Below, piece after piece: positions 1-64,000 of a stretch of DNA of 64,000 bases. Made by a program: the position numbers and the translations under genes. Every line of letters begins with the position of its first letter. The stretch's first letter is position 1. Under the pieces are notes generated by a model. That model had not been told where the DNA came from. It saw only the letters and a program-made list of their open reading frames with translations, and ran no database searches. Source of the DNA: Deinococcales bacterium (lineage in GTDB: Bacteria; Deinococcota; Deinococci; Deinococcales; JAAFIG01); NCBI GenBank assembly GCA_013298595.1, contig JAAFIG010000008.1:93259-157258 (forward strand), given 5' to 3'.

Positions 1-968
1 CTGGACGCACATTACTGCAAGCAACAGCTGATCGTTTAATACCACTATGTGATGGTTTAGAAGATATTCATATTGTCACAGGGCAAATGCACCGAGGTTT
101 AATTCTAGAGCAACTGCCAGAATTACCACTCGAGAATTTAATTGTTGAACCACAAGCAAAGGATACGGCTGCGGCAATATTGTTAGCAACGCTACGAATT
201 GTTGAAAGTCACGGTACAGACGCAATTATCGGTATTTTCCCATCGGATCATAATATAGGTAGTTCTCTCGAGTTCCAAAGTACGATGCGTGATGCAGTCG
301 AAGTTGCCCAAAATAATGATTCCATTGTTACCCTTGGTATGACACCAACATTTCCATCTACAGGATACGGCTATATTCAAAGTGGTCAGGATTATGATGC
401 CAAAGCCAAAGCTGTGCAGCGTTTTGTTGAAAAACCCAATCTTGAAACAGCCGAAATTTATCTTGAACGTGGCGGATTTTATTGGAATGGTGGTATGTTT
501 ATTTTCCGTGCAGCTGTGATGCTGGCAGCATTTGCTGAATACGCACCAGATATTGCTGCTATATTGCAACCAGTTAAAAACTACAAAGACCTCAAACTCG
601 CATTTCAAAGCTTGCGTAAAGTGAGCATTGATTACGCAATTCTCGAGCCAAGCAGTTTAGCTAATAAGGTACTGGTTGTTCCTACTGATTTTTTATGGGA
701 CGACCTTGGCGATTGGAATGCACTAGCTCGGTTATTACAAGGCGATAATCCAAACCTTGAAATTGGCTCACATGTCGGATTAGATACTTCTGGTGCAATT
801 TTGTACACAACAACAGGCGATGATTTAATCGTAACACTTGGACTCGAAGATGTTTTAATTGTTCGGGATGGAGCAGTGACACTGGTTGCACATAAAACCC
901 GAACGCAAGATATTCGTCGTTTAGTTGAAAAACTGAGAAGCGAACCTACACTCGAGAAATTTATTTAA
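1..968 (+). CDS. manC: Mannose-1-phosphate guanylyltransferase, 5'-truncated by window edge
   Basis: Makes GDP-mannose from mannose 1-phosphate and GTP in the cytoplasm, supplying the downstream dehydratases and mannosyltransferases. The open frame (codons from base 3) runs off the left edge, so the N-terminus with the GGxGTRLWP pyrophosphorylase loop is missing. An internal ATG at 87 is not the start, because the upstream codons read a family-like LLQATADRL segment. Visible motifs are VEPQAKDTAAAI, FPSDH, GYIQSG, VEKPN, WNGGMFIF and WDDLGDWNAL, in the family order. The C-terminal mannose-6-phosphate isomerase domain of bifunctional ManC is absent. Several CTCGAG sites mark it as resident DNA. 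The next gene starts 7 bp downstream. Confidence 0.9.
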   Translation, partial: GRTLLQATADRLIPLCDGLEDIHIVTGQMHRGLILEQLPELPLENLIVEPQAKDTAAAILLATLRIVESHGTDAIIGIFPSDHNIGSSLEFQSTMRDAVEVAQNNDSIVTLGMTPTFPSTGYGYIQSGQDYDAKAKAVQRFVEKPNLETAEIYLERGGFYWNGGMFIFRAAVMLAAFAEYAPDIAAILQPVKNYKDLKLAFQSLRKVSIDYAILEPSSLANKVLVVPTDFLWDDLGDWNALARLLQGDNPNLEIGSHVGLDTSGAILYTTTGDDLIVTLGLEDVLIVRDGAVTLVAHKTRTQDIRRLVEKLRSEPTLEKFI

Positions 969-975
969 AACAAAT

Positions 976-2007
976 ATGAAGAGAGCTTTGATCACAGGTA
1001 TTACTGGACAAGACGGTGCATATTTAGCACAGTTCTTGCTCGAGCATCAATATCAAGTATATGGTACACATCGTGCTACGTCGGCTGTGCCTGGCTGGCG
1101 TTTGCAAGCATTGGGGGTTGCACAAGACATAGCGTTTGTGTCACTTGATTTACTTGATTTTGAGAATATTGTACAAGTGATACGTCAAGTAGAGCCAGAT
1201 GAAATCTATCATTTGGCTGCTCAAAGTTTTGTTGCAAAGTCATTTGAGCAACCACTCTATATTACAGATGTTGATGCAATGGGTGTGACAAGAATACTCG
1301 AAGCAATTCGTACCATTAATCCAACTATTCGATTCTTCCAAGCTTCAACTGCAGAAATGTTTGGCGAAGTGCAGATTTCTCCACAATCCGAAAATACCCC
1401 TTTTTTGCCACGAAACCCGTATGGAACGGCTAAACTTTATGGACATTGGATAACTTCTAATTTTCGAGATACACTCAATATTCACGCTTCGAGTGGTATT
1501 TTATACAATCACGAATCGCCATTGCGTGGCGAAGAATTTGTGACCCGAAAAATAACCAAAAGCCTTACACAAATTAAATATGGATTGCAAACAACCCTCG
1601 AGTTAGGTAATCTCGAAGCGCAACGAGACTGGGGTTATGCCAAAGATTATGTTGAAGCAATGTGGAAGATGTTGCAGTCTGAAACAGCTGATAATTATAT
1701 TCTTGCAACTGGGAAAACCCGTTCAGTCAAGGAATTTGTTGAAATGGTAGCACAAGTACTCGAGATACAGATTTCTTGGCAAGGTCAAGCTGAGAATACT
1801 GTAGGAATTGACGCAAAAACAGGACAAACAATTGTAACTGTTAATCCAAATTTTTACCGACCAACAGAAACAACCGTACTGGTTGGTGATGCAAGTAAAG
1901 CCCAATCCAAACTCAACTGGCAACCAAAAACATCATTTGAAGAATTAGTGACCTTAATGACACTGGCTGATATTGAAAAAGTAATGCAATTTCGAGTTAA
2001 CGCATAA
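976..2007 (+). CDS. gmd: GDP-mannose 4,6-dehydratase, copy 1
   Basis: A 343-residue extended SDR predicted to convert GDP-mannose to GDP-4-keto-6-deoxymannose, the precursor of GDP-fucose, GDP-rhamnose or GDP-perosamine. The Rossmann motif TGITGQDG lies at residues 7-14. The STAEMFGEV segment, the YGTAK (YxxxK) catalytic motif and the [17 protein letters not shown] stretch typical of Gmd are all present. It follows the GDP-mannose synthase by 7 bp, so substrate supply and use are co-transcribed. A second Gmd-like gene lies at 8583. Both have the GQDG glycine loop rather than the GFVG loop of Rmd reductases, so I read both as dehydratases. This copy carries CTCGAG sites; the second has none. 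Confidence 0.88.
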   Translation: MKRALITGITGQDGAYLAQFLLEHQYQVYGTHRATSAVPGWRLQALGVAQDIAFVSLDLLDFENIVQVIRQVEPDEIYHLAAQSFVAKSFEQPLYITDVDAMGVTRILEAIRTINPTIRFFQASTAEMFGEVQISPQSENTPFLPRNPYGTAKLYGHWITSNFRDTLNIHASSGILYNHESPLRGEEFVTRKITKSLTQIKYGLQTTLELGNLEAQRDWGYAKDYVEAMWKMLQSETADNYILATGKTRSVKEFVEMVAQVLEIQISWQGQAENTVGIDAKTGQTIVTVNPNFYRPTETTVLVGDASKAQSKLNWQPKTSFEELVTLMTLADIEKVMQFRVNA

Positions 2008-2022
2008 GTTGAGGAGTTCATT

Positions 2023-3495
2023 GTGTTGAGTGTAGAAAAATATATAACCAAGATAGGTAAACTTGATCAACCGATCTATGGGTATCCACAGTACGATGCC
2101 CAACAAAATATCCATGCTGATCAATTGTTAACAATAAATCGTATTGTAGATTTGATTGCTAAAGACTTGAATCGCCCGCTTAAAATACTCGAGTTAAACT
2201 GTGCACAAGGATTTTTTTCGCTACATCTCGCGGCTAAAGGATTTGATGTGCTTGGTATAGATTCAAGTAAAAATAATATTGAACTATGTTGTGTTTTAGC
2301 AAAAGAAAATCCAACATTAAAAGTGAAGTTTGTCAAAGGTAAAATAGAAGATATTATTAAAAGTATCAAAAATCAACATTTTGATGTGATTATTGGCATG
2401 AATACATTTGCACAACAGATTCGAGACTGGAATTTGCAAAAAGTGCAAAGTTTTATGAAAAAATTAAACCCATTAAGCGATTTTGCAATTATTGAACTAT
2501 ATCTGCAAAAAAATAATGAATTAATCCCAGCTGTTGAGTTACTCGAGCCATATTCTTTTTTTTGTGAAATTCAGGATAACAGTGTAGAATCAAGTATAGT
2601 ATTTTACTTGTCGACAAATTCACTACTGCTTGATAATCAATTATGGAAATTTGATACTTGGAAACAAGAATCACATGCACTAGCTGGTAATAATCATCAA
2701 AAAAGCCGCCGTTACTATTTTAGAGATAATCGAATCATTAAATTCTTTCGATTTGATGGAATATTAGCAAAAAACAACCAAGATGAATTATTTCGAGAAT
2801 TCAATTTTTTAAGTACAAACAAAAACTATCCGTGTATTTTTCGACATCAATTTTCTCAATATTATGGTTGGATTGAAAGAGAATTAATTAATGGGGATAA
2901 TCTACTAGATTTAATTTTAAGCAAAAAAGATTTTAACACGTATAAAGTTATTTATTCCTTGCTTAAACAACTTGTTGCATTAGAAAAAAGCGGACTTTAT
3001 CATCGAGATTTGCGTTTATGGAATATTATTATTAGCAAAAACAATAATGTTCATTTGATTGACTATGGAGATATAACTAATATTAAAGCTGATGTTGTCT
3101 ATCCAGAAAATATTTTCTTTTCTTTTTTTATTACTATTAATGATCTAATTAATCGAGAAGTCCATCCAATATTACCGATTCGAGCTGCAAAAATCAGTCC
3201 ACATCATCTACCTAAGCCATATTGTGATTGGCTGAGTGAAGTCTGGTATGAGCCAATGAACCAATGGACTTTTAAGTTGATCTACAAAAAATGGTTAGAA
3301 ATCAATAAAAATCAGCTAAGCCGAGAGTTATTAGCTCAAGATCAGTGGAATGCAAAAACTGAGGAGTACATCAATACGTTAAGGCGGTATCATGATCATG
3401 AAATTTCGGAGTTGAATAAACGATTTAACCAATTAAAAGATAGTTATGATGCTATACTAAAACGTGTCATAAAACTTGAGAAAACACTTGACTAA
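2023..3495 (+). CDS. WbdD-like methyltransferase-kinase fusion (polysaccharide chain terminator)
   Basis: A 490-residue fusion. Residues about 30-190 form a SAM-dependent methyltransferase, with motif I ILELNCAQGF near 55-64, Asp80 after strand 2, and FDVIIGMN. Residues about 225-400 form a protein-kinase-like domain with the catalytic loop HRDLRLWN near 327 and IDYGD (the DFG equivalent) near 346. The last 70 residues are predicted coiled coil. This domain order is that of E. coli O9a WbdD, which caps polymannan chains with a methylphosphate and sets chain length. The coiled coil is short here, and the next gene encodes a long separate one. The start is GTG, 6 nt after GAGGAG (2011-2016). 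CTCGAG sites occur only in the methyltransferase half. The polysaccharide role is inferred from architecture and context. Confidence 0.72.
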   Translation: MLSVEKYITKIGKLDQPIYGYPQYDAQQNIHADQLLTINRIVDLIAKDLNRPLKILELNCAQGFFSLHLAAKGFDVLGIDSSKNNIELCCVLAKENPTLKVKFVKGKIEDIIKSIKNQHFDVIIGMNTFAQQIRDWNLQKVQSFMKKLNPLSDFAIIELYLQKNNELIPAVELLEPYSFFCEIQDNSVESSIVFYLSTNSLLLDNQLWKFDTWKQESHALAGNNHQKSRRYYFRDNRIIKFFRFDGILAKNNQDELFREFNFLSTNKNYPCIFRHQFSQYYGWIERELINGDNLLDLILSKKDFNTYKVIYSLLKQLVALEKSGLYHRDLRLWNIIISKNNNVHLIDYGDITNIKADVVYPENIFFSFFITINDLINREVHPILPIRAAKISPHHLPKPYCDWLSEVWYEPMNQWTFKLIYKKWLEINKNQLSRELLAQDQWNAKTEEYINTLRRYHDHEISELNKRFNQLKDSYDAILKRVIKLEKTLD

Positions 3496-3513
3496 CAGAT
3501 AAAAGGAGTTAGA

Positions 3514-4767
3514 ATGAAAACAAGAAAACCAAGAAAAATAAATAATATGGATTCTGCTCAGACAGCCGAAGTGAATCAAGTAAAAGCGGTTGAACTTGGA
3601 CGATCTCAAGAGCACTTTGAAGTAGAAAGCAACCACCGAGACCGAGATAAAGCCCGTATAATGCATCTTGAGCAAAAAGAATCCATGCTGAAGGTTGAGA
3701 TTCAGAATTATAAAGATACACTGCAACAAATGCAACAGCAAATGGCTGAACTACAAATACAAATTTTACAACAGCAAGAAGAGCATGCCAACGAGTTGCA
3801 AGTTATGGTTGAACAAGAACGAGTGCAAGCCCAACACATATTAGTGCAGACTCAGACTCTTGAAAATCTACAAGCTGAGTGGCAAGAGTCTATGGAAATT
3901 GAGCGATCAAAATTAGTTAATGCAGAAATTGAATGTGTGTCTATACAAGAACAACTAAGCGATGTAAGACAAAATTTTGCAATTGAACGTACTGTATTTG
4001 CAGAAACAACAATCCAACTTGAAGAGTTACATAAACGAGAAACTGCGTTGTTGTTAGAATTAAATGATGAAAGGCAAATTCTTCTAGATACTAAGAAATA
4101 TTTGGAGAATCTTGATGCCACACTTTCCAGTAAGGATCAAATCATTTACTTAAAAACTGAAAAGATTGACTATTTAGAATCAAAACTACGTGAAATGGAA
4201 AATCGCAAGTTCGCTCAGAATCGAGAATTGGTGTCAAAAAATGAGATCATCTCAAGTTTGCAATTTCGAGCAGAACATTTGTCTCAGACTCTTCAGTCTC
4301 GAGATGTTCAAGCGGCTTTAATAGAGGGGGCTATACGAGAGTTGGAAGCTAAGCTATTAGATGCTCAAGAAACAATTAAAGCCACACATACTAAATTAGA
4401 GGTTGTTAATAAAGAGTTAGACTTGTGTAATTACAAATTAGCAACAGCAAATCGGCAAATAGATCTGTCCAGGCATGAAGTATTAGTTATTCATGAAAGT
4501 CGATCTTGGAGACTAGCGGCACCGTTCCGATTTTGTAGCAATGTTATTCGGAATTTATTTGGATATATCAGAAATAACAGAGCATTTTTAACACCCAGTA
4601 TTCAATCGACAGAAGTTAAACATGAACATCTTTCGGTATCTGATCAAATTAATGTAGAAGCTACCACAAATGCCGATAGTATATCTGAGTTAATAAATAC
4701 CTCATCCAAAAACATTTATTTATCGTCTAAGGCAACTAAATTGCTAAAGAGGCAAAGAATAAATTAA
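3514..4767 (+). CDS. Long coiled-coil protein, candidate chain-length ruler
   Basis: A 417-residue protein, highly charged and Gln/Glu/Leu-rich, with heptad-like coiled coil over residues about 15-325. It has no signal peptide or membrane span. Near residue 330 is ESRSWRLAAPFR, matching the S-x-S-W-R-(LIM)-T/A-A-P-L/F-R motif often found at the ends of coiled coils and GT domains in O-antigen clusters, where it may be an amphipathic membrane anchor. The last 70 residues look disordered. It starts 18 bp after the methyltransferase-kinase gene, with AAGGAG before the ATG. In WbdD the coiled coil is fused and acts as the length ruler; here it may be supplied as a separate protein. That function is inferred. 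Confidence 0.6.
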   Translation: MKTRKPRKINNMDSAQTAEVNQVKAVELGRSQEHFEVESNHRDRDKARIMHLEQKESMLKVEIQNYKDTLQQMQQQMAELQIQILQQQEEHANELQVMVEQERVQAQHILVQTQTLENLQAEWQESMEIERSKLVNAEIECVSIQEQLSDVRQNFAIERTVFAETTIQLEELHKRETALLLELNDERQILLDTKKYLENLDATLSSKDQIIYLKTEKIDYLESKLREMENRKFAQNRELVSKNEIISSLQFRAEHLSQTLQSRDVQAALIEGAIRELEAKLLDAQETIKATHTKLEVVNKELDLCNYKLATANRQIDLSRHEVLVIHESRSWRLAAPFRFCSNVIRNLFGYIRNNRAFLTPSIQSTEVKHEHLSVSDQINVEATTNADSISELINTSSKNIYLSSKATKLLKRQRIN

Positions 4768-4784
4768 TTTGTTGCAAGTGGTGA

Positions 4785-4821
4785 ATTTTTTGTATAAATT
4801 TCAGAAATTTATACAAAAAAT
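4785..4821. repeat. Perfect 18-bp inverted repeat, AT-rich
   Basis: Arms 4785-4802 and 4804-4821 are exact reverse complements around one central base (a 37-bp odd palindrome) in the 177-bp gap between the coiled-coil gene and the tandem glycosyltransferase. The ends are T- and A-rich, so as RNA it would form an A-U hairpin with a terminal U-run on either strand, which allows a weak bidirectional terminator. A 12-bp piece of the right arm (ATTTATACAAAA, 4807-4818) recurs directly at 4912-4923 just before the next gene. It also sits at the edge of the CTCGAG-poor segment. Confidence 0.75.
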
Positions 4822-4944
4822 AAATAATATTAATAAAAAACCATATTGTTTATTTTCCCCCTAAGTTGAATTTGATGCCAAATGTAAAGTGTTATTTACG
4901 TGGATAAATTTATTTATACAAAATATCTAATGTAAAGGTGAATT

Positions 4945-7900
4945 ATGCGAATAGTTATAGATTTAATTGCTTGTCAGACAAGTTCTAGCAGAAATAGAGG
5001 TATAGGAAGATATTCAATGTCTTTAGTCAAGAAAATGTTGGAGATTGGTGTTAATCATGAATTTTATATTATACTTGACGGTTCTTTTGAGAATACAATA
5101 GACAAAATCACTGATGAATTGTCGAATTTTCTTGATAAAAGTCGTTTTAAAATATATAAACCTTCGCCATTTTCAAGTGAAATTTCTATTAATAATTCTT
5201 TAGTTCTTGAATTTAATCAAGAACTAAGAGAGATTTTTATTAATTCATTGAACCCAGATGCTATATTGCAAACCAGTTTATTTGAAGCCACAGCTCAATC
5301 TAGCAAAAGTATCCCAACAAGTGCTCTAAATTTTACTATTTTATATGATCTTATTCCTTTACTTAATAAAGAACGATACCTAACAAATCCAGGAGCAATG
5401 AAATGGTATTTTGGTAAACTACAATCGCTAGTTAGAAATGATTTTCTACTGGCAATTTCCGAATCAAGTCGTCAAGAAGCAATCGAGGCTCTTTCAGTTT
5501 CTCCAGATCGAGTGATAAATATTAGTTCCGCGATTGAACCTACATTTCGATTGATTGACATAAGTGAGTCTGAGAAACAGATAATAATGGATAAATATGC
5601 AATTAATAGTTCCTTCATATTATATACGGGTGGTATTGACTATAGAAAAAATATTGAAGGTTTAATTGAAGCCTATTCTTTATTAGATATAGATATACGA
5701 AAAAATCATCAACTTGTTGTGGTTTGCTCGATTCATGATACGGATCGAGCAAGGTTAATGGATTTAGCAAAAGTAAATGGACTGATGGATAGAGAAATTA
5801 TCTTTACTGGATTTATAACGGATGATGACTTGTTATTTTTATATAACATGTGTCACTTGTTCGTTTTTCCTTCTATCCATGAAGGTTTTGGGCTACCTGC
5901 ACTTGAAGCTATGGCGTGCGGAGCACCTGTTATTGTATCCAATACAAGCAGTTTACCTGAAGTGGTAAATAATCCGATTGCGCTTTTTGATCCTGCTGAG
6001 CCACAGGAAATTGCAAAAAAGATGTGGCTCGCACTGACAGATTCTGATTTTCGACTAGAATTATCTCAACATGGTTTAATTCAAGCCACGAAGTTTTCGT
6101 GGGGAAAATCAGCGCGAACTGCTTTAGTTGCGATTGAAGATGCTTTCTCTCAAAAAAGTTTGAATTCGATATCATCTAATTCAATGCAACAGCGTCTCAA
6201 GTTGGCTTTTGTTGCTCCTCTTCCCCCATTACGAACTGGAATCGCAGTATACTGTACCGATTTGTTGCCTAGTTTATCAAGGCACTATGATATCGATGTG
6301 ATTGTAAACCAAGACGTAGTTGATGATAGTTGGATTAGTGCAAACTTTCAGATACGTTCAGTAGATTGGTTTCGACAAAATCATAGCCAGTTTGATCGAG
6401 TGCTATACCATTTTGGTAATTCTGCATTCCACGTACACATGCCAGAGCTTTTAATAGAAATCCCAGGTGTTGTGGTAGCACATGATTTTTTCCTTAGTGG
6501 CATGATGCATTGGATGCATGCACAGGATAGTACATTAGATGAATTTGGTAAATTGATTTTTGAGAATCATGGCTATCAAGGCATTAAAGATATTTCCCCT
6601 GCTTCTTTGCCAAATTTTAACAACAAATATCCAATGAGTAAAACGATATTTTCAAATGCTTATGGAACTATTGCACATTCAGACTATTTGATAAATCAGG
6701 CAAAAACTTGGTTTGGGTTAAATCCACAGCACTTCAGAAAGATTTTGCTTGCCAGAAAACAACAAATGAAGATTAGTACTGCATCTATATCCAGCCGAAA
6801 TAACAAGCAGACAAGCAAAATCTTCACAGTTTGTTGTTTTGGTTTTTTGGGTGCAACTAAACTAAATCATAAACTACTTGAAGCATGGTTTTTGTCTTCC
6901 CTTGCGAGTGATCAGAACTGCCAATTAATTTTTATAGGTGAATTACCTACAAATGACTATGGGAAGCAACTGGAGGAACTGATGGCTACTCATCCAGAGG
7001 TTCAAAATATAGTCATCACAGGATTTGTATCAGTATCTGAGTACCAAGACTATTTAGCTAACTGTGATTGTGCTGTTCAACTGCGTACGCTTTCGCGAGG
7101 TGAAACATCAGGTGCAGTATTTGACTGCTTAGGGGCAGGTATTCCATTGATAGTAAACGCAAATGGAACTTTTGCTGAGCTTCCTGCGAATACTACCTTA
7201 ATGCTAGACGATGATTTCTCGATTCAAGATTTAGTTGATGCTCTTTACAAAATAAAGTCTGACCCGCAATTGCGCGATCAGATTTCGCAGCAGGGACAAG
7301 CATTTGTCAGAACTGAGTGTCATCCAGAAAGAATCGCTCAGGAATATGCTGATGCTATTGAACATTTTTATCAAAAAAATCCTTTTGCTCAGGGAAGATA
7401 TACGCTTGAAAAACTAGGCAAAATTTTGCAAAGTGACTTTTGTTCTCCTATACAAAAGCAGGTTGCTGTTGACGTTTTTTTTGCTAACTTAGATGAGATT
7501 GAAAAATGTTATATTGATCTTACACATATTGTTGAGACTCAGAATTTACCTGATCAACAGATGCTAAGTTTACTTCTTGATACTTTTTTATTGCACGAAA
7601 ATCAAGGCATTGTGTTTGTTGTATTCAAAAATGATAGATTTGTTTACGCACACGAAGCTGTATTGAAGCACCTCAACATTACAGATATAAATATAACTAA
7701 TGACACGGTGTATTTTAAACCACGAGCACCAATATTATTAATTAATCCTCACTACTATACTGCATCACAGTCTGAACTAATCACTGATAATCTACTTACA
7801 TCATTAAGGGTATTTATGCTTACTTCGAGTAATTTAGATGATGCAGTAAATATTCCTTCAAATATAGGATTGTTTGTAAAAAAAGGTGCTAGCTTCTTAG

Positions 7901-8586
7901 TCATGTCTAAATCAGATATGTCTAGAATAGCTATTGCATTAGATTCTTTGACCGACAATCTGAAACAATCGGTTGAGTTTTTCTTTTCGCAAGAGTTGGG
8001 TCAAATATTGACCAATGCAAATTTAATTTTCGATGATTCAGGATTCAATCCAAGTTCTTTTTTGTCAAAATTTTCTAGTGAAGTGCAACAATTCTCATTA
8101 CCTATTGGTAATGAATCATCTTATTTTTTTATTCACGACTGGCAAACTGCTCAATGGAAACCAAATCAACGATTTATTTTTGCAGCGAATTCACCGCAGT
8201 TATCAAGTCAAATTGGTATAAAGACAGACTATGCCATCCAGAGCACCCAAAAATCTGGATTTGTTATATACGGACCATATATAAGTATAAGTGCTGGGCA
8301 GTTTAAAGCAAGGATTTTTGCTTCTTTTACCTCGGAAATAAATGGAATAATTAACTTTGATGTTATCAGTTTTGGCGGTCAAACTCATAATATGTTGAGT
8401 TTTAATCAAGTAGATCTGATAGGTGCAAATATTATTGAAATACCATTCAATATTCAGGCTGAAATACACAATCTTGAAGTACGAATGTGGATTGCTGAAA
8501 CTGTTGAAGTCACTATATTCGGAATGAGTATTGAACGTGAAGATATCAGTATCATAACTGAGAAGGGTTTGGGAATAGAGAAATGA
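4945..8586 (+). CDS. Tandem GT4 glycosyltransferase, WbdA-like, with C-terminal beta module
   Basis: A 1213-residue protein with three parts. GT4 domain 1 (about 1-400) starts [19 protein letters not shown] and has [16 protein letters not shown] near 313. GT4 domain 2 (about 419-830) starts [17 protein letters not shown] and has [17 protein letters not shown] near 718. A C-terminal region (about 1075-1213) contains [10 protein letters not shown] and is shared with the 9682 gene. Two GT4 domains in one chain recall WbdA, the polymerising mannosyltransferase that works with WbdD, and the gene follows the WbdD-like one. It is probably a cytoplasmic, membrane-associated polymerase using GDP-sugars. 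I found no CTCGAG in its 3.6 kb, and codon use is AT-rich compared with its neighbours, suggesting recent acquisition. Linkage and sugar cannot be read from sequence. Confidence 0.8.
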
Positions 8587-53835: not shown

Positions 53836-54582
53836 CTAAATCTCGAGTACTAAATTTTCTTGAAATCCATGATTTGTTTCATCAGGATATCCTCGAGGGT
53901 TGGCAATAATTCTTGTCTGTCCAATTAAATAATCTTGTGCTTGGTGAATATGCCCATGAATCCATAGTGCCGCACCTGACTTTTTGATCAATTCATCTAA
54001 GCTCGAGGCGTATGCGGCACTCAGCAGATCGTTTTGATATTCCACAGGTAATGACTGCTTGCTGGGCGCGTGATGGGTAATGACAACAAGTTTTTTACCT
54101 TGCAATTCGAGAAATCGTTGCTCGAGAAAGCGCTTAGATTTTTGATGAATCATGACGGTATTGATTGAGCGTAACTTAGAAAATTGTGGACTGATCCGAA
54201 TCTTTTTGTAATCACTCATGATTCGAGTAGCCTCTATTCCTGCTACTCGAGCATCGCCAAAAAGAGCAAAATCTGTCCATAATGTGCAACCCACAAAGGT
54301 TGTATCTTCGATGGTGAAAGTATCGTTCTCGAGGATATGAATGTTGCTACCTCGAGTTTGGTTTTTGAGTTCTTCAAGCAATTTTGGATAGGCTTGCCCG
54401 TAGTATTCGTGATTGCCTAAAATGTAAAGCACAGGTTGATTGGGAAAATGTTCTTGTGCCCAGCGAACACCTTTAACCCCAAGGTGCGTGTCTCCTGCCA
54501 AAATAACAACGTCTGCGTCTGTTTGTTCGGGTGCAAATTCAGCAAACTCGAGATGCAGGTCTGAGTAAATCAGGATTTTCAT
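53836..54582 (-). CDS. Calcineurin-like metallophosphoesterase
   Basis: 248 residues with the five metal-binding blocks in order: YSDLHLEF (D-x-H), LAGDTHLG (GD), ILGNHEYYG (GNHE), VITHHAPS (H) and IHGHIHQA (GHxH). The substrate (cyclic nucleotide, phosphodiester or capped RNA) is unknown. It overlaps the Dus gene by 4 bp (ATGA), and both are read from the minus-strand promoter before 55613. The length fits the small cytoplasmic class. Confidence 0.88.
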   Translation of the reverse strand: MKILIYSDLHLEFAEFAPEQTDADVVILAGDTHLGVKGVRWAQEHFPNQPVLYILGNHEYYGQAYPKLLEELKNQTRGSNIHILENDTFTIEDTTFVGCTLWTDFALFGDARVAGIEATRIMSDYKKIRISPQFSKLRSINTVMIHQKSKRFLEQRFLELQGKKLVVITHHAPSKQSLPVEYQNDLLSAAYASSLDELIKKSGAALWIHGHIHQAQDYLIGQTRIIANPRGYPDETNHGFQENLVLEI

Positions 54583-55613: not shown

Positions 55614-55677
55614 AGCGCCGCCGAGTGTAGCAAAAATCCCGTGATTGGTGAAGGGTTTTATGGTACAGTAACTTTTG

Positions 55678-55731
55678 GGCGTGAAAATCACGCCGTTGTG
55701 CATTGCGAGCCGCACGCTCGCCATTTTTTTT
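55678..55731 (+). promoter_or_regulatory. typA leader with terminator-like hairpin (attenuator candidate)
   Basis: A first hairpin GGCGTGA-AAA-TCACGCC spans 55678-55694. A second GCGAGC-CGCAC-GCTCGC spans 55705-55721 and is followed by CCA and eight T (55724-55731), an intrinsic terminator in the leader. The T-run ends just before GAGG and the ATG at 55741. Both stems are perfect. A TACAGT box (55664-55669) upstream could be the -10. Confidence 0.6.
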
Positions 55732-55740
55732 GAGGTTTTC

Positions 55741-57528
55741 ATGCAGGAATTTCGTAATATCGCCATTATCGCCCACGTAGACCACGGTAAAACAACTTTG
55801 GTGGATGGGTTACTTAAACAAACGCATACTTTCCGCGATAATCAAGCTGTGGCTGATCGCGTTATGGATTCCAATGCCTTAGAACGTGAACGTGGCATTA
55901 CCATTTTGGCTAAGAACACAGCTGTCGAGTACCACGGAATTAAAATTAACATCATGGATACACCTGGTCACGCCGATTTCGGTGGTGAAGTTGAACGTGT
56001 GCTTGGCATGGTGGATGGTTGTTTGTTGTTGGTGGATGCTTCCGAAGGTCCGATGCCACAAACTCGCTTTGTGTTGAAAAAAGCCCTCGAGCTTGGTTTG
56101 CGCCCAATTGTTGTGATTAATAAAATTGATCGTAAAGATCAGCGCATTACCGAAGTGGTGAATTTAACCTTTGATCTGATGGCAAGTTTAGAAGCTACCG
56201 ACGAACAACTTGATTTCCCAATTATTTATGCGATTGCCAGAGAAGGTAAAGCCTTTAAGGATTTAGAATCCCCTAAAGAAGATTTAGACGAATTGCTCGA
56301 GTTAATTGTTAAGCATGTTCCACCACCCAGCATCGAAATTGATAAGCCGTTTCAAATGCTGGTGACCAATTTGGATTACTCGGATTACTTGGGTCGTATT
56401 GCTATTGGTCGTGTGCGTCGCGGTAAGGTTAAACGCAATGAGTACGTCATGCTGATGCACAAAGATGGTACAAAAAGCAAAGCCAAAGTCTCACAAGTTT
56501 TTACCCACATGGGTTTAGCCCGTATCGATGTCGAAGAAGTCTACGCTGGTGATGTTGTGGCAATTGCTGGTCTCGAGGATGTTGGTGTGGGCGAAACGGT
56601 TGCCGATTTTGCCGATCCTGAAGCTTTGCCAGTGCTGACAGTGGATGAGCCAACTGTTTCGATGACGTTCGGTCCGAATACCAGCCCATTTGCTGGTAAA
56701 GAAGGTAAGTACGTAACAACTCGTCACATTCGGGATCGTTTGTTCAAAGAAGCTATGACCAACGTGGCGTTGCGTGTCGAGGAAGACAGCACCGACGAAT
56801 ACAAAGTTTCTGGTCGTGGTGAGTTGCACCTTTCTATTTTGATTGAAACCATGCGCCGTGAAGGGTACGAAATGCAGGTTTCGACCCCGCAAGTGATTAC
56901 CAGAGAAATTGATGGCAAAACCCATGAGCCTTACGAACACTTAGTGATTGATGTTCCCGAAGGTAAAATGGGTGGCGTTATGGAAACCCTCGGTAGTCGC
57001 CGTGGCGAAATGCTAAACATGGATAACCAAAATGGGCGAATGAGACTCGAGTATAAAATCCCAGCCCGCAGTTTGTTTGGTTTCCGCACCCAATTCCTCA
57101 GTATGACCCAAGGCGAAGGCATCATGAACCACGTATTTGATGGCTACGCCCCAATGGCAGGCGACATCAAAACCCGTCTCAATGGTTCTTTGGTGGCAAT
57201 GGAAGCTGGTCAAACATTTCCTTACGCCATTTGGAAACTCGAGGATCGCGGTAAGTTCTTTATCGAACCTGGTATCGAGGTATATGTTGGCATGATCGTT
57301 GGTGCTCACAGCAGTGCCAAGGATTTAAACGTCAATGTCTGCAAATCCAAGAAACTGACCAACATGCGAACCAGCGGAGCGGACGACGCAACTACCCTGA
57401 CCCCAGTCTCGCCAATGAGTCTCGAGGAAGCACTCGAATACATCTCCGATGATGAATTGGTTGAAGTTACCCCAAAGAGCATCCGTTTGCGTAAGCGGGT
57501 TCTCGAGCCGAATCAACGCAAGATTTAA
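55741..57528 (+). CDS. typA: Ribosome-associated GTPase TypA/BipA
   Basis: 595 residues. A translational GTPase related to EF-G, active in 50S assembly and stress growth. G1 [10 protein letters not shown]2 region RERGITI, G3 DTPGHADF, G4 NKIDR, then domain II ([14 protein letters not shown]), domain III and domain V, and the BipA-specific C-terminal domain ([14 protein letters not shown], then [47 protein letters not shown]). The start at ATG 55741 has a short GAGGT site; 22 further in-frame codons upstream run through the hairpin leader. Terminator at 57545. Confidence 0.95.
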
Positions 57529-57544
57529 GGTATTTAAGCATCTT

Positions 57545-57571
57545 ATCCCCTCGAGTCTCGAGGGGATTTTT
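57545..57571 (+). terminator. Intrinsic terminator of typA built from two CTCGAG
   Basis: ATCCCCTCGAG (57545-57555) and CTCGAGGGGAT (57557-57567) are exact inverted copies around one T, followed by TTTT. It lies 16 bp after the typA stop. Confidence 0.85.
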
Positions 57572-57614
57572 CTTGTCCTGTTGCATCGTAGCCTTGACTA
57601 AGCCAGTTCTCGTA

Positions 57615-57643
57615 TTGGCTCGAAGTTGCAAACCCCATAAGCT
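57615..57643 (+). promoter_or_regulatory. Promoter TTGGCT / TAAGCT, leaderless
   Basis: -35 TTGGCT (57615-57620), 17-bp spacer, -10 TAAGCT (57638-57643), then 6 nt to ATG 57650. The best-formed leaderless promoter in the window after that of gltB. Confidence 0.6.
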
Positions 57644-57649
57644 GTTGGT

Positions 57650-57952
57650 ATGGGCTGGGCTTCGATGCTAATTCTCAAACTTCAAGCAGGTGAAACAGTC
57701 CAGTTTCGTCCTCGAGGGCATTCGATGCGGGGTAAAATCGAATCTAAACAACTGTGTACTGTCGAACCTGTTGACCCTGATTCGTTGGCAGTCGGCGATA
57801 TTGTGCTGTGTAAAGTTTCTGGGAATCAGTATTTGCATTTGGTTTTAGCAATAGACGCTGGGCGGTTTCAGATTGGCAATAATCGGGGCGGAGTTAACGG
57901 GTGGATTGGGCGCAACGGGATTTATGGTCGTTTGACTCGAGTCGAAAATTAG
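57650..57952 (+). CDS. S24/S26-like small protein
   Basis: 100 residues. It has GHSMRGKI (the Ser of the S-M pair), TVEPVDPDSLAVGDIVLCKVSG and YLHLVLAIDAGRFQIGNNRG followed by NGW, the pattern of S24/S26 (LexA/signal peptidase I-like) beta folds. The general-base Lys could be Lys50-region of VLCKV or be missing, so catalysis is unsure. No DNA-binding domain or membrane span, unlike LexA or LepB. It may be a free-standing protease-like domain of unknown job. It lies between typA and topA. Confidence 0.6.
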   Translation: MGWASMLILKLQAGETVQFRPRGHSMRGKIESKQLCTVEPVDPDSLAVGDIVLCKVSGNQYLHLVLAIDAGRFQIGNNRGGVNGWIGRNGIYGRLTRVEN

Positions 57953-58059
57953 CTCGAGTTTAGTGTGTTTTACAGCTTTTCCACACTTGACCTTTCCGTT
58001 TTTGGTTTTCGTGTGCTACCCTACCCGCAATTGTTGGTTTGAATTGAAGGGGAATTACT

Positions 58060-60945
58060 TTGAGTACACTTGTGATTGTTGAATCGCCTGCGAAGGCAAA
58101 AACCATTGGGAAATTCCTTGGACGTGGGTATATTGTCGAATCGAGTTATGGGCATATTCGGGATTTACCTAAAGGTGCGGATGAAGTCCCTGCTAAGTTC
58201 AAAGGTGAGTCTTGGGCGCGTTTGGGTTTAAACATCGATGCAGGTTTTGAACCTTTGTACATTGTTTCTGCTGATAAACGAGCGCAAGTGGCAAAATTGC
58301 GAAGCCTTGCTAAGGATGCTGATGAAATTTTTCTGGCAACCGATGAGGACCGCGAAGGTGAAGCGATTGCTTGGCATTTATTTGACGAGTTAAAACCAAA
58401 AGTGCCAGTCAAACGCATGGTTTTCCATGAAATTACCAAAGAAGCCATTGACCATGCGATTTCGCATCCACGCAGCATTAACCAAAATATGGTGCAAGCC
58501 CAAGAAACACGGCGAGCCTTAGATCGTTTGTATGGCTACGAAGTTTCACCTGTGTTGTGGAAAAAAGTCAAACCCAAACTCAGTGCTGGACGAGTGCAAT
58601 CTGTAGCAACTCGTTTAATTGTCGAACGTGAACGTGAACGTATGGCATTTATCTCGAGTAGCTGGTGGGATATCGAAGCGCAATTTAGCACACCAAAAAA
58701 CGAATCTTTTCCAGCCATTCTCTACGAACTCGAGGGGAAGCGTTTAGCACTTGGTAAGGACTTTGACTCGAGTGGCAAGTTTACAGGCGAAGGCAAAGTG
58801 GTGCGTTTATCCGAAGCCGAAGCTCGAGCTTTGGCAAGCGGTTTACGCGGTGTGCCGTTTACTGTGCTTGGTACAGAAGAAAAGCCATTTACGCAACGTC
58901 CTTATGCCCCTTTTATTACCAGTACCTTGCAACAAGAGGGTGTGCGTAAGCTTGGTTTTGATTCAAAACGCACCATGCGAGCCGCTCAGAGCCTCTACGA
59001 GAATGGTTACATCACCTATATGCGTACTGACAGCACAAACCTTTCTAAAGAAGCTTTAAGCGCGGCTCGAGCGCAAGTGGTGGATTTGTACGGACAAGAG
59101 TATTTACATCCAACGCCGCGCACTTACGAGAAAAAAGTCAAGAATGCCCAAGAAGCCCACGAAGCGATTCGTCCCGCTGGTGAGCGTTTTCGTACCCCTC
59201 AAGAAGTTAAAGCCGAATTAGGCAACGACGAATGGCGTTTATATGACCTTATCTGGAAACGCACCGTGGCTTCGCAAATGGCAGATGCCAGGGGTCGTAG
59301 GTTATCGGCTCGGATTGGTGGTACTGCCACAGATTCCCGCAAAGCCGTGTTTAATGCCACAGGTAAAGTTATCGATTTCGCAGGTTTTTTGCGGGCTTAT
59401 GTCGAAGGTTCAGACGACCCAGATGCAGCCCTCGAGGATAAAGAAGTGATGTTGCCCGCGCTTGCTACCAACGATCGAGTGCGCGACGATACCCTCAACC
59501 CTAAAGGGCATAACACGCAACCACCATCGCGGTTTACCGAAGCCAGCTTGATTCAAGGTCTCGAGGAACGCGGTATTGGCAGACCCAGTACCTACTCGAG
59601 CATCATTCAAACTGTGCAAGACCGAGGCTACGTTTTTAAGCGCGCTCAAGCCTTAATTCCAACGATTACTGGTTTTAGTGTGGTGCAATTACTCGAGCAG
59701 CATTTTGCAAAATTGGTCGATTATAGTTTTACTGCCCGAATGGAAGACGACCTTGACCATATTTCAATGGGTGAGCAAAAACGCATTCCTTATCTCGAGC
59801 GGTTTTACTCGAGCGAAGAGGGTTTGAAACAACAAATTGAAAGCCGTTTAGATACGATTGATGCCCGACAAGTCAGCACGATTTTTGTACCAGCTTTGGT
59901 GGATACAGGTATTTCGGTACGTTTAGCCAAATTTGGTCCAATTGTTGAATTTGAAGGCAAACTGGCAACCATTCCAGATGATCTTGCCCCAGACGAATTA
60001 AACCGTGAAAAAGCCGAGGAGCTGCTAACCAAACGCTCGAGTGAACAAGTGCTGGGTACAGACCCAGTGTCGGCTTTGCAAATTTATGCCAAAAATGGGC
60101 GTTTTGGTCCATATGTGCAACTTGGCGAGAACGGCGCAACAAATGTCAAAATGGCATCGCTTTTCCCAAACGATACTTTAGAAGATTTAACCTTGGAGCG
60201 GGCTTTATTATTGCTTTCTTTACCACGTCATGTTGGCGATTTAGACGGCGAGGAAGTCTGGGGTTACAATGGTAAATTTGGTCCATACTTGAAAAAAGGC
60301 AAAGACTCGAGAAGCCTTGGCAAACACGATGAGCTTTTTACAGTGGATATTGCCCAAGCCAAAGCCATTTTCGAGCAACCAAAAACTCGAGGTCGTGGCA
60401 CTCCCAAAGACCCTGTGCAAATTTTTGAGTACACCGACCGTTTACCAATTAAATTACTCGATGGACGCTTTGGTTTATACCTCTCGGATGGCGAATTAAA
60501 TGCGTACTTGCGCCGCGAAGATAACGCCCAAACCTTAGATGCCGATGCGGTTCGTAGCATTTTTGAAGAACGTGGTAAGCCACCAAAATCCAAAGCCAAA
60601 CCAGCTAAAGCCTCGAGTGGCAAAGCTGCTGGTAAAAATACTGCGACGGCAAAACGGGCTGTGACTAGCAAAGCCTCAAGTAAAAAAACCACAACCAAGA
60701 AAAAACCTGCTGCCAAAGCCAAAGCTGATGCTCCTGCTAAAGAAAAACCATCGTGGGAATCGCTCGAGCCGTTTACCAAGGATTTTGATCCAACTACTGC
60801 TCAGCTTTTGAAACTGATTAACGGTGATCGAATTCCAATGGCAACAGCGGCTGCCCAATTGCGAATCAGCTCCGAAGATGCAATGAGCCGTTATCGTGCC
60901 AGCAATTTTAAGTTGTATAACTTGTACCGAAAATCTAAAGTCTAA
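58060..60945 (+). CDS. topA: DNA topoisomerase I
   Basis: 961 residues, type IA topoisomerase that relaxes negative supercoils. N-terminal Toprim (LVIVESPAKAKTIGKFLG, DEDREGEAIAWHL), the catalytic tyrosine in GYITYMRTDSTN near residue 320, and repeats of the C-terminal FGPYV/FGPYL type (three copies). There is no Cys4 zinc finger. A Lys/Ala/Thr-rich tail (about 840-900) is followed by a short conserved end. The start is TTG 58060 with GAAGGGGA ahead, one of the few housekeeping genes here with a strong Shine-Dalgarno. Terminator at 60951. Confidence 0.95.
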   Translation: MSTLVIVESPAKAKTIGKFLGRGYIVESSYGHIRDLPKGADEVPAKFKGESWARLGLNIDAGFEPLYIVSADKRAQVAKLRSLAKDADEIFLATDEDREGEAIAWHLFDELKPKVPVKRMVFHEITKEAIDHAISHPRSINQNMVQAQETRRALDRLYGYEVSPVLWKKVKPKLSAGRVQSVATRLIVERERERMAFISSSWWDIEAQFSTPKNESFPAILYELEGKRLALGKDFDSSGKFTGEGKVVRLSEAEARALASGLRGVPFTVLGTEEKPFTQRPYAPFITSTLQQEGVRKLGFDSKRTMRAAQSLYENGYITYMRTDSTNLSKEALSAARAQVVDLYGQEYLHPTPRTYEKKVKNAQEAHEAIRPAGERFRTPQEVKAELGNDEWRLYDLIWKRTVASQMADARGRRLSARIGGTATDSRKAVFNATGKVIDFAGFLRAYVEGSDDPDAALEDKEVMLPALATNDRVRDDTLNPKGHNTQPPSRFTEASLIQGLEERGIGRPSTYSSIIQTVQDRGYVFKRAQALIPTITGFSVVQLLEQHFAKLVDYSFTARMEDDLDHISMGEQKRIPYLERFYSSEEGLKQQIESRLDTIDARQVSTIFVPALVDTGISVRLAKFGPIVEFEGKLATIPDDLAPDELNREKAEELLTKRSSEQVLGTDPVSALQIYAKNGRFGPYVQLGENGATNVKMASLFPNDTLEDLTLERALLLLSLPRHVGDLDGEEVWGYNGKFGPYLKKGKDSRSLGKHDELFTVDIAQAKAIFEQPKTRGRGTPKDPVQIFEYTDRLPIKLLDGRFGLYLSDGELNAYLRREDNAQTLDADAVRSIFEERGKPPKSKAKPAKASSGKAAGKNTATAKRAVTSKASSKKTTTKKKPAAKAKADAPAKEKPSWESLEPFTKDFDPTTAQLLKLINGDRIPMATAAAQLRISSEDAMSRYRASNFKLYNLYRKSKV

Positions 60946-60950
60946 ATATC

Positions 60951-60984
60951 AATCGGGCGAGCCAAATTCTCGCCCGATTTTGAT
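60951..60984 (+). terminator. Intrinsic terminator of topA
   Basis: AATCGGGCGAG (60951-60961) pairs with CTCGCCCGATT (60969-60979) around a 7-nt loop, followed by a T-rich tail. The tail and the end of the stem are duplicated at 61156, see the MITE-like element. Confidence 0.88.
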
Positions 60985-61169
60985 TTCAGGGCAACCGCAA
61001 AGTTGGAAAAATCGTTTATTGGTGTGAGACCCCCTCATTGTTGTGCAGGGCGATCACAAGGATCGCTCCTACAGGACGTTATTTGAACTTCATGTTCGCC
61101 AAGTTTGCAATAGCAAATGCTTTGGAATTTCCCCCAATAAGGACTTTGCGGTTGCCCCGATTTTGATTT
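60975..61169. mobile_element. MITE-like element with 15-bp TIR and 12-14-bp direct repeats
   Basis: GGGCAACCGCAAAGT (60989-61003) and ACTTTGCGGTTGCCC (61143-61157) are exact inverted copies. Outside them CGATTTTGATTT is repeated directly (60975-60986 and 61158-61169), as expected for a target duplication, and the left copy belongs to the topA terminator. The 169-bp core has no ORF and carries GCGATC-ACAAG-GATCGC (61050-61066), a REP-like hairpin ending in CTCCTACAGG. No CTCGAG occurs inside. A non-autonomous element mobilised by a transposase elsewhere is likely; it is the main content of the 258-bp gap. Confidence 0.65.
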
Positions 61170-61203
61170 TGTTGTTCAAACGTATGGATAAAGACCTGTG
61201 TCG

Positions 61204-62349
61204 TTAGATCAAAGCCCCAATACGCCGCACAGCTTCGTTGATTTGCTCGAGACTACACGCATAGGATAATCGCACTTTGCCAAAGGCTCTGAAATCTGTC
61301 CCTGGAACAACAGCCACTTTGGCTTGCTCGAGAATGATTTTGGCAGCTTCGGTTTCGTCTGAGTGGATACGGCTGGTGTCGGCTAAAACATAGAATGCGC
61401 CATCGGGCGTTGGTGTTGGGCAGCCAATACTATTTAAACCTGCCACGATGGTATTGCGCCGCTCAAGAAAGGCTTGGCGGGCACTTTCAATATAGGCTCG
61501 AGTGTCGTTCAGAGCTGCGATGGTTGCCCACTGAGCGATGCTGTTAGCACTGCTGGTGGTTTGTCCTTGGATGGCATCCATAGCTTTAATCACATGGGTC
61601 GGTGCAGCTGCGAATCCGATGCGCCAGCCTGTCATGCTGTAGGCTTTGCTTGCACCATTAATCGTAATAACGCGTTCTGGATTAAATGTACCAGCACTGA
61701 TTGGCAGTGCACCTGTGTAAGTAATATGTTCGTACATTTCGTCGGTCATGACCCAAAGATCGTGTTGCTCGGCGAGTTTCATGATTCCAGCGATGGTATC
61801 GTTACTATAAACAACTCCAGATGGATTACTCGGGCTATTAATAATGATCATTTTGGTTTTATTGGTAATAGCTGCCTCGAGTTGCGCGAGGTCTAATTGA
61901 TAGCCTTTTGTTGCTTCGGTATCCACAAAAACAGGAATAGCCCCAAACATTTGCACCTGCTCGGGGTATGTCACCCAAAAAGGTGCTGGGATAATCACTT
62001 CATCACCTTGGTTCAGCAAAGCAAAACAGGCATTATACAAAGCTTGTTTGCCACCACCTGTAACCTGAATTTGGTTAATAGCATACTCGAGCTGATTTTC
62101 ACGCTTAAATTTTGCAGCTATCGCTTCGCGCAACTCTGGTACACCAAGGCTGGGCGTGTACTTGGTTTTACCCTGTGCTAATGCGTCTCGAGCCGCTTGT
62201 TTAATATGTTCGGGAGTATCAAAATCGGGTTCACCGACCGACATTGAAATGATATCCACACCAGCCCTTTTTAATTCCATGGCTCGAGCAGTGACGGCAA
62301 CGGTGCTCGAGGGTTTGAGTTGGGTACTGGCATGAGAAAGTGGTTTCAT
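61204..62349 (-). CDS. Class I aspartate/aromatic aminotransferase
   Basis: 381 residues, PLP-dependent type I fold, AspC/AAT-like subgroup Ib. GEPDFDTPEHIKQAARDAL, TGGGKQALYN, NSPSNPSGVVY, TDEMYEHI and the PLP lysine in GASKAYSMTGWRIGFAAAP. The Arg in RLSYACSLEQI binds the substrate carboxylate. It probably makes aspartate or glutamate. The start is ATG 62349, 8 nt after TATAAT on the minus strand (62358-62363); a TTG three codons upstream overlaps that box. Confidence 0.92.
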   Translation of the reverse strand: MKPLSHASTQLKPSSTVAVTARAMELKRAGVDIISMSVGEPDFDTPEHIKQAARDALAQGKTKYTPSLGVPELREAIAAKFKRENQLEYAINQIQVTGGGKQALYNACFALLNQGDEVIIPAPFWVTYPEQVQMFGAIPVFVDTEATKGYQLDLAQLEAAITNKTKMIIINSPSNPSGVVYSNDTIAGIMKLAEQHDLWVMTDEMYEHITYTGALPISAGTFNPERVITINGASKAYSMTGWRIGFAAAPTHVIKAMDAIQGQTTSSANSIAQWATIAALNDTRAYIESARQAFLERRNTIVAGLNSIGCPTPTPDGAFYVLADTSRIHSDETEAAKIILEQAKVAVVPGTDFRAFGKVRLSYACSLEQINEAVRRIGALI

Positions 62350-62357
62350 TACGCTCA

Positions 62358-62363
62358 ATTATA
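62358..62363 (-). promoter_or_regulatory. -10 box TATAAT of the aminotransferase gene
   Basis: Consensus TATAAT on the minus strand, 8 nt before ATG 62349, in the 22-bp gap after the membrane-protein gene. Leaderless. Confidence 0.55.
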
Positions 62364-62371
62364 AGCGAGGT

Positions 62372-63157
62372 TTATGGGTTCACCCAAAGTTTACCCGCTC
62401 CAAGTTCGTCTCGAGTTTTTTCTGGCAGAATGGTTTGTAAAAAACCAAGATAGTATTTAGCTTCGGTTAAATTATCGGTTTGTGTGTTGAGTACAAAGTA
62501 CTGGTGAGGTTTGAGAATATCAATACGGATCATATGATGCTTAATTGAAGACTTTCCAGCTGCTGAAAAAGCCAAGATTTGCTTGATGTTGGCAAATTGA
62601 AACAACTGTGTTTGGTCTTGTCCTTTCCAAGTTTTCCCGTTGACTGTCAATGTTTCTTCGGCAGTATCAAACACATAAGAAAGTGGCATAAATGGTGTTT
62701 TTTGCAAATTAAAAGCGAAATTATAAGCGATGCCCAGACCAATCAGTGTGCTGAGAACAAATATTAAAAGCTCTGCTTTTACATCCGAAAGGAATACGAT
62801 GAATGCAATAACAGAAAATCCTGCGAGAAAAATTCCAAAAACAACAAATAATCCCAGAAAAACTCGAGTTGCATAATACCCTCGAGCTTGGGCTTTAGCA
62901 TCTCGAGCATCAATAATCAGTTGTGTTTCGTTGCTTTTGACACGCCATAAGTACATGATTTTTTGGTCAAAATCACCACTGGGTAAGCTTAGGTGAATAA
63001 GCCAAAACATGATGCCAATACCAACAACGAACGGTATCATAAACCAAGGGAAATCCACTTTGTTTAAGGCTAAGCCCACCATTCCTAGTGCTGCAATCAA
63101 GCCAATGAGCACACATAGAAAAAGAGCAATTCCCTCACTGATTCGTGGTGGTTTCAT
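62372..63157 (-). CDS. Membrane protein of unknown function
   Basis: 261 residues. Two spans near the N-terminus (ALFLCVLIGLIAALGMVGLAL, FMIPFVVGIGIMFWLIHLSL), a basic Arg/Lys-rich segment, then two more (VFLGLFVVFGIFLAGFSVIAFIVFL, LLIFVLSTLIGLGIAYNFAF), and a soluble C-terminal half with a PH/bacterial-PH-like strand pattern (AEETLTVNGKTW, HHMIRIDILKPHQYFVLNT). No family recognised. Minus-strand TATACT lies about 45 nt upstream, so it may have an ordinary leader. Confidence 0.72.
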   Translation of the reverse strand: MKPPRISEGIALFLCVLIGLIAALGMVGLALNKVDFPWFMIPFVVGIGIMFWLIHLSLPSGDFDQKIMYLWRVKSNETQLIIDARDAKAQARGYYATRVFLGLFVVFGIFLAGFSVIAFIVFLSDVKAELLIFVLSTLIGLGIAYNFAFNLQKTPFMPLSYVFDTAEETLTVNGKTWKGQDQTQLFQFANIKQILAFSAAGKSSIKHHMIRIDILKPHQYFVLNTQTDNLTEAKYYLGFLQTILPEKTRDELGAGKLWVNP

Positions 63158-63324
63158 ACTGGATCACTCGAGTTTGTTGCAAAAAATTGCATTTGTATTT
63201 AGTATAACTAAGTAAACCAACTTTGCGTATTCATAAGTATACTCGAGCTGATGAATGCACTTGTGGCTCCAGAGATTTCTGCTGAACTTTGGTAAACCAA
63301 TAGCAGCACAAAAACTAACAATGC

Positions 63325-63330
63325 TATGCT
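63325..63330 (+). promoter_or_regulatory. -10 box TATGCT of the glyoxalase gene
   Basis: TATGCT lies 5 nt before ATG 63336, which sets the start; the in-frame upstream codons from 63255 are inside the promoter. Confidence 0.55.
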
Positions 63331-63335
63331 CAGCT

Positions 63336-63752
63336 ATGAAACAAATCATTGCTCATATTGCTTTGGTGGTTCGGGAATACGACGAAGCAATTGCTTTTTA
63401 CACGCAAAAACTGGGGTTTACACTACTCGAGGATACCTACCAACCTGAACAAGATAAACGTTGGGTAGTAATTGCACCCGCTCACTCAAGTGGGGTCACT
63501 ATTTTACTGGCTCGAGCTTCTACACCAGAGCAAGCTGCATTTATTGGTAACCAAGCTGGTGGACGGGTTTTCTTGTTTCTCGGTACCGATGATTTCTGGC
63601 GCGATTACCGTGCTATGCAAACCAAAGGTGTGGAATTTACTCGGGAACCAAAAACGCTTGAGTATGGCACAGTGGCTGTGTTTAAGGATTTATATGGCAA
63701 TTTATGGGATTTAATTGAGTATGCGCCTGAGCATCCAATGCGTTTGCGGTGA
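63336..63752 (+). CDS. Glyoxalase/bleomycin-resistance/dioxygenase (VOC) family protein
   Basis: 138 residues with two beta-alpha-beta-beta-beta units: IAHIALVVREYDEAIAFYTQKLGFTLLED at the start and VAVFKDLYGNLWDLIEYA at the end. Metal ligands would be His7 in the first unit and the Glu of DLIEY in the second. Members include lactoylglutathione lyase, antibiotic-binding proteins and dioxygenases; the substrate here is not predictable. Leaderless start. Confidence 0.85.
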   Translation: MKQIIAHIALVVREYDEAIAFYTQKLGFTLLEDTYQPEQDKRWVVIAPAHSSGVTILLARASTPEQAAFIGNQAGGRVFLFLGTDDFWRDYRAMQTKGVEFTREPKTLEYGTVAVFKDLYGNLWDLIEYAPEHPMRLR

Positions 63753-63766
63753 GTCAAGACAAAGTG

Positions 63767-64000
63767 TTACGCAAAGACATCAAATTCCTCGAGGATGGTT
63801 TCGAGTTCTTTGCGTCTCGAGGTGTCGCAGCGTTGGGCTGTGCCAATCACCAGTAAATGCGCTAGGCTCGACATTAACCCAGAAGCTCCGTATTGTTGAA
63901 TGGCTTGGGTTGGTACGCGAATCACTAAGTTTGCATGGGGTAGTAACGGTGCTGTGCCATTATCGGTAATCAGAATTAGGGTTGCGCCTCGAGCTTTTAA
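63767..64000 (-). CDS. C-terminal end of a SIS-domain protein (RpiR-type regulator), cut by window edge
   Basis: The minus-strand frame from 64000 to a TAA at 63767 reads 77 residues without a stop: ARGATLILITDNGTAPLLPHAN then LVIRVPTQAI, an Ile/Leu-rich helix and an Arg/Glu-rich end. The first part fits the last strands of a SIS sugar-isomerase domain, as in RpiR/MurR regulators or KpsF/GutQ isomerases. Three CTCGAG sites support a real resident gene. The N-terminus lies beyond the window, so regulator and isomerase cannot be told apart. Confidence 0.65.
   Translation of the reverse strand, partial: LKARGATLILITDNGTAPLLPHANLVIRVPTQAIQQYGASGLMSSLAHLLVIGTAQRCDTSRRKELETILEEFDVFA

Follow-up and report, generated by a model that had tools for sequence, protein, structure and literature searches.

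The closest described systems are the highly iterated palindromes (HIPs) of cyanobacteria, namely HIP1, GCGATCGC, and the alternate HIPs GGCGCC, RCCGGY and GCSGC (Elhai 2015, PMC4390886). In cyanobacteria, a HIP or alternate HIP is accompanied in the genome by a methyltransferase that can modify it; HIP densities are quoted at about 500-2,500 sites per Mb, with an observed/expected (O/E) ratio of 15.5 for GGCGCC in Calothrix D253 (PMC4390886). The published HIP1 repair model predicts about 1 site per 1000 nt and requires a G-methyl-C step. While cyanobacteria supplied all known examples, no answer emerged as to the cause of HIP1; the example described here is a distinct one, of higher density, from a different phylum. 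The CTCGAG excess is real and lineage-wide, and its behaviour makes the motif a highly iterated palindrome of HIP type; it is neither HIP1 nor the footprint of a restriction-modification system. No earlier report of its over-representation was found in the literature searched.

CTCGAG in the window and in the source genome

The window, i.e. the whole stretch of 64,000 nucleotides analysed (GC 42.6%), contains 299 copies of the bare hexamer by direct count, palindromic and so present on both strands, a mean of 4.7 per kb against an expectation of 10.8 copies from independent and identically distributed (iid) bases. CTCGAG is the most over-represented 6-mer of the window and lies inside nearly all of the top 7- and 8-mers. 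Pattern searches of the whole assembly (4.58 Mb, 68 contigs) returned 27,159 CTCGAG and only 15 copies of the reversed control GAGCTC, with a mean distance between CTCGAG sites of about 165-169 bases. The excess first noticed in a sequence-only reading of the window is thus confirmed and is larger than was stated there.

Assembly-wide counts are pattern searches; the other statistics for the source genome (G000) come from a 459-kb sample made of the window and 20 sampled stretches (L079-L098). In this sample, CTCGAG is 30-fold above iid base composition and 65-fold above a first-order Markov model trained on site-masked sequence, and hexamers without overlap to CTCGAG stay below about 4-fold. 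The Markov count that the sequence-only reading had proposed as a check therefore leaves the excess standing. In line with its remark on the usual avoidance of palindromic restriction sites, other palindromes are mostly avoided, the median O/E of the 64 palindromic hexamers being 0.27 in G000 compared to 29.6 for CTCGAG. Besides CTCGAG, the only palindromic hexamers with O/E above 1.5 in the same material are TTGCAA (2.6-fold), CAATTG (1.9-fold) and AAATTT (1.8-fold). Among shorter palindromes, GGCC is almost absent (none in the window; O/E 0.02) and CCGG is rare (0.08) in the window and the G000 samples; this avoidance of GGCC is shared by G001 and G003, is weak in G002 (0.34) and is not seen in G012 and G016.

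The excess had been ascribed to the window as a whole. This is correct for most of it, but low-GC islands are nearly devoid of sites (Table 1), and without the island the density of the window rises to 5.45 per kb in 2-kb bins. Site-free stretches longer than 1 kb are mostly of low GC (0.31-0.39), the glycosyltransferase segment of the window among them. Judging from its GC content and scarcity of sites, this segment is probably recently acquired DNA that has not had time to gain sites, and acquired DNA seems to gain CTCGAG only with time.

Table 1. Features of the window, with positions counted from its first nucleotide
Feature	Coordinates	Strand	Evidence
Island of low GC (0.33-0.36); glycosyltransferase and transposase-like genes, only 3 CTCGAG	2542..12276		GC, site count
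Typical chromosomal part, CTCGAG-dense (~5.5/kb outside the island)	12277..64000		2-kb bins
typA (translational GTPase; lineage marker, outside the mechanism)	55675..57528	+	TIGR01394, 960 bits
Intrinsic-terminator-like stem downstream of typA	57545..57567	+	CTCGAG at 57550-57555 and 57557-57562, complementary flanks, then T run

As the sequence-only reading had proposed, sites occur in all three reading frames and between genes. Coding copies are distributed 1410/578/421 over the frames, the CTC GAG frame holding 59% of them, and the density is 5.7 per kb in coding and 6.2 per kb in intergenic DNA. A 12-fold excess is left after synonymous codons were shuffled among genes with proteins and codon usage kept, and intergenic DNA alone is enriched 32.6-fold. 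The Leu-Glu dipeptide reaches 2.39 times its expectation in G000; these pairs, described earlier as nearly always CTC GAG, are so coded in 66% of cases (1410/2143). Leu-Glu is similarly raised, 2.2- to 2.5-fold, in the positive genomes described below, compared to 1.1- to 1.2-fold in G004 and G007. CTCGAG is thus a DNA-level motif strong enough to double one dipeptide across a proteome.

Lineage range and turnover of the sites

In a search with TypA among named genomes, the nearest relatives were Deinococcales metagenome-assembled genomes (MAGs; JAAFJQ010000018 and JANYHH010000041), followed by a Truepera MAG at 67%. The palindrome was surveyed in 111 genomes of the phylum, a set in which Deinococcaceae are apparently not included. 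All four genomes of the source family (f1) carry the excess, with 27,159 CTCGAG in the source and 26,619, 27,118 and 28,178 in its three relatives, as do the two genomes of genus g11 in the sister family f2 (21,868 and 14,690, the latter in a genome that is 58% complete). The reversed control GAGCTC numbers 2-25 in these six positive genomes. The comparison of related genomes suggested at the outset thus extends the excess beyond the source genome.

The six positives range in GC from 45 to 59% and contain 5,900-7,700 sites per Mb; in samples, CTCGAG is 20-30 times the iid expectation, 6-12 times the synonymous shuffle and 24-36 times the expectation in intergenic DNA. Genomes of family f5 that resemble Meiothermus in size are intermediate (5-12 times iid, 1.6-5 times the codon shuffle), and no excess was found in the sister-family genome G004 or in the Thermus-like G007; the Meiothermus and Thermus labels of the f5 genera are ones that we infer. 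Other counts were 13,552 in genus g8 and 683 in g4. A second, separate lower-GC genome, G070 of family f3 (GC 48%; L217-L218), has 11 times the iid and 10 times the codon-shuffle expectation with a Leu-Glu ratio of only 1.28. The trait is therefore graded, being absent in Thermus-like, weak in Meiothermus-like and extreme in f1 and f2 g11 genomes. This gradation allows ideas based on methylation, repair, uptake and the nucleoid to be compared, and the Meiothermus-like genomes, if truly Meiothermus, would give cultured strains for tests.

To follow the fate of individual sites, 27.5 kb of aligned G000 and G001 sequence (75.5% identity) were compared: 119 of 180 CTCGAG were intact (66%), compared to 22.8% of hexamers in general. 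Over six genome pairs within f1, 44-64% of CTCGAG were unchanged, and one-off aligned states accounted for 4-9% at CTCGAG compared to 30-35% for hexamers in general. Where a Leu-Glu pair coded CTCGAG in G000 was conserved, G001 matched all six bases in 82 of 96 instances compared to 16% for other Leu-x pairs, although part of this identity follows from the equilibrium preference itself. In the 459-kb sample, perfect sites are in large excess (2,637 seen, 89 expected) and one-off hexamers number 1,312 for 1,698 expected; our own arithmetic converts the frequencies of the two into a strength of selection or drive, on a scaled basis, near ln(38)=3.6. Losses of CTCGAG are mostly transitions, and the CpG cytosine is no hot spot. 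Conservation, the perfect and one-off frequencies and the loss pattern together indicate that selection or biased fixation maintains the motif and replenishes it.

Candidate readers of the palindrome

The flanks of CTCGAG carry at most 0.06 bit in f1, and a weak outer G/C preference (0.17 bit) in f2 g11. Edges this sharp around a 6-bp palindrome point to a dimer as the reader of the sequence, and the exact borders in f1 fit what is expected of a dimeric recognition enzyme. In G000, only 132 pairs lie less than 20 bp apart, compared to 347 expected with local density fixed (z -13). The other positive sets likewise have too few sites within 20-40 bp of each other, and most control hexamers are flat. 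This depletion is limited to coding DNA, and intergenic pairs 10-30 bp apart are enriched, which weakens the depletion at short gaps as proof of a spacing function. The stem is extended in 24% of intergenic close pairs compared to 7% of coding pairs, and extension together with a T run is found in 13% compared to 1%. The stem downstream of typA contains two CTCGAG, as had been read from the sequence (Table 1). Since CTCGAG pairs with itself, avoidance of hairpins in messages and use as terminators between genes would explain both the coding depletion and the intergenic enrichment.

We tentatively propose that CTCGAG is read by a palindrome-recognising protein, for which a solitary methyltransferase that acts in repair or in replication is the likeliest candidate, while granting that this leading reading could well prove wrong. 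A cellular protein would bind exactly CTCGAG in double-stranded DNA, and binding would give each site a small advantage, or new sites would fix preferentially; one-off hexamers would thereby keep turning into CTCGAG while existing sites resist decay. This reader would be a solitary DNA methyltransferase with a specificity like that of XhoI/PaeR7I, perhaps a different enzyme from genus to genus, whose methyl mark may be used for the choice of strand in repair or in replication, along the lines of Elhai's proposal for HIP1. Close intergenic pairs of sites may have been co-opted as transcription terminators. A reader of this kind is favoured over uptake drive, and uptake drive over nucleoid binding.

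The search for the enzyme itself speaks on both sides. No DNA methyltransferase ortholog common to G000-G003 and G012 was found in PF00145, PF01555, PF07669, PF02384 and PF02086, which counts against a methyltransferase. All five families are mosaic: PF00145 gave one cluster (L005/L009/L008) limited to G000, G001 and G012, and PF02086, which first seemed to follow CTCGAG, was set aside as its members are not orthologous. The main MAGs are 91-94% complete each, so that a true ortholog missing from several at once is unlikely, though not impossible; possibly each genome uses a different, non-orthologous methyltransferase. For a methyltransferase count the XhoI-like methyltransferases without a working XhoI nuclease that occur in the phylum (G009, G077 and G002). 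At L406:5788-8300 (G009:C1, ~1093787-1096226), an intact XhoI-like gamma methyltransferase adjoins an XhoI-family endonuclease gene with TGA and TAG stops. Its relatives without a nuclease are two copies in G077 (47-49% identity; CTCGAG 3 per kb) and a remote full-length one in G002 (24.6%), and no close relative was found in G000, G001, G003 and G012. From the adjoining nuclease family and their similarity, the G009, G077 and G002 enzymes are predicted to recognise CTCGAG. Solitary methyltransferases of CTCGAG type thus probably exist in the phylum but, within the searches made, are not common to the extreme genomes. The likeness to HIP1 put forward in the sequence-only reading stands as regards extreme frequency, use of all frames, intergenic occurrence and conserved positions, and its orphan CTCGAG methyltransferase, for which the five families hold no shared ortholog, is plausible at most. 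A further putative restriction-modification pair was seen in the source genome (L006:1396-3245, G000:C34), where a PF01555 methyltransferase is followed by a NotI-family (PF12183) endonuclease.

It is possible, though on balance doubtful, that CTCGAG tags self-DNA throughout the lineage and has a dedicated reader protein other than a methyltransferase, for uptake, recombination or defence; the spread of the tag would have added some 1,250 Leu-Glu pairs in every 460 kb. A narrower form, which we consider rather unlikely, is that it marks self-DNA for natural transformation, as an uptake signal sequence spread through preferred uptake and recombination by molecular drive. Thermus and Deinococcus are naturally competent, and the sites are dense, conserved in position and poor in low-GC islands, as this explanation would have it. 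Intergenic close pairs moreover form terminator stems, as do the uptake signals of Neisseria and Pasteurellaceae (PMC1852404). However, known uptake signals are about 9-11 nt long and generally number a thousand or more per genome (PMC1852404), whereas CTCGAG is a bare 6-mer without flanks in more than 27,000 copies. The near-even density and the scarcity of sites less than 20-40 bp apart would also agree with a binding site for a nucleoid or chromosome-organising protein, spaced along the chromosome. This we hold to be improbable, as the scarcity is confined to coding DNA where avoidance of mRNA hairpins fits equally well, intergenic close pairs are enriched, site-free islands several kb long are tolerated, and no candidate protein is at hand. 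The palindromic form of CTCGAG also speaks against the uptake explanation, since uptake signals are not known to be palindromic.

It is very improbable that an active restriction-modification system of XhoI type has CTCGAG as its target. XhoI-family endonucleases (PF04555) do occur in 4 of the 111 phylum genomes (G018, G042, G048 and, broken, G009), but none of these is CTCGAG-rich and the family is absent from G000-G004, G008, G012 and G016, thus from the six positive genomes. Restriction sites are, besides, normally avoided, as most other palindromes are in G000. The endonucleases of G018, G042 and G048 (L398, L399 and L400) stand with a PF01555-like methyltransferase, not one of the gamma class of G009. 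Avoidance of CTCGAG in these three carriers was considered and rejected, since the density is below that of genus-mates but GAGCTC, the control, declines in parallel. Viral contigs in which three CTCGAG lie close together were likewise discarded: among the matches listed, those of highest excess look compositional (repeat proteins, high-GC contigs), L354, the strongest match of low GC, is a serine-repeat gene, and no phage of the Deinococcales lineage was found. Finally, it is hardly credible that the excess merely follows from codon usage, preferred codon pairs or a bias in dinucleotides: such a cause would suit the weight of the CTC GAG frame and the Thermus-like G007, where codon usage alone accounts for the count (19 seen, 20 expected), but as a full cause, the outcome that would have overturned the sequence-only reading, it is ruled out by the shuffle and Markov excesses and is already refuted for the source genome by the use of all three frames and by the intergenic excess, which codon-pair bias fails to explain and which recurs in all six positives.

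Comparison with known systems

CTCGAG is also the recognition sequence of XhoI/PaeR7I systems, and other members of the phylum have relatives of the nuclease and of the methyltransferase gene; unlike the sites of such systems, it is hugely enriched rather than avoided, in genomes without an XhoI-family nuclease. Like the uptake signals of Pasteurellaceae and Neisseria (PMC1852404), it is iterated and conserved, and its paired copies serve as transcription terminators, close pairs forming such stems between genes here also; it differs from them as a palindromic bare hexamer present in many times more copies.

The closest likeness is to HIP1 and the alternate HIPs: like them, CTCGAG is a short palindrome confined to lineages, in extreme excess throughout the genome, both within and outside coding DNA, and the single dominant motif of the genomes that carry it. 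Counts above Markov genome-wide, presence in coding and non-coding DNA beyond codon use, and conservation (66% compared to 23%) all place it with this class. It is not HIP1 proper, as GCGATCGC does not occur in the window and the host lineage is Deinococcales, not cyanobacterial. Unlike HIPs, CTCGAG is a new sequence in another phylum and has no GC step; together with a site every ~165 nt, this means that the published HIP1 repair model does not fit it. It is denser (5,900-7,700 compared to ~500-2,500 per Mb; O/E 20-30 compared to 15.5) and, in contrast to the sporadic alternate HIPs, extends over one complete family and some of another. A matching methyltransferase was found in cyanobacteria, whereas the five families searched in the CTCGAG genomes gave no shared ortholog. 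Taken together, these comparisons make CTCGAG an unusually dense new counterpart of the HIP1 repeats outside cyanobacteria.
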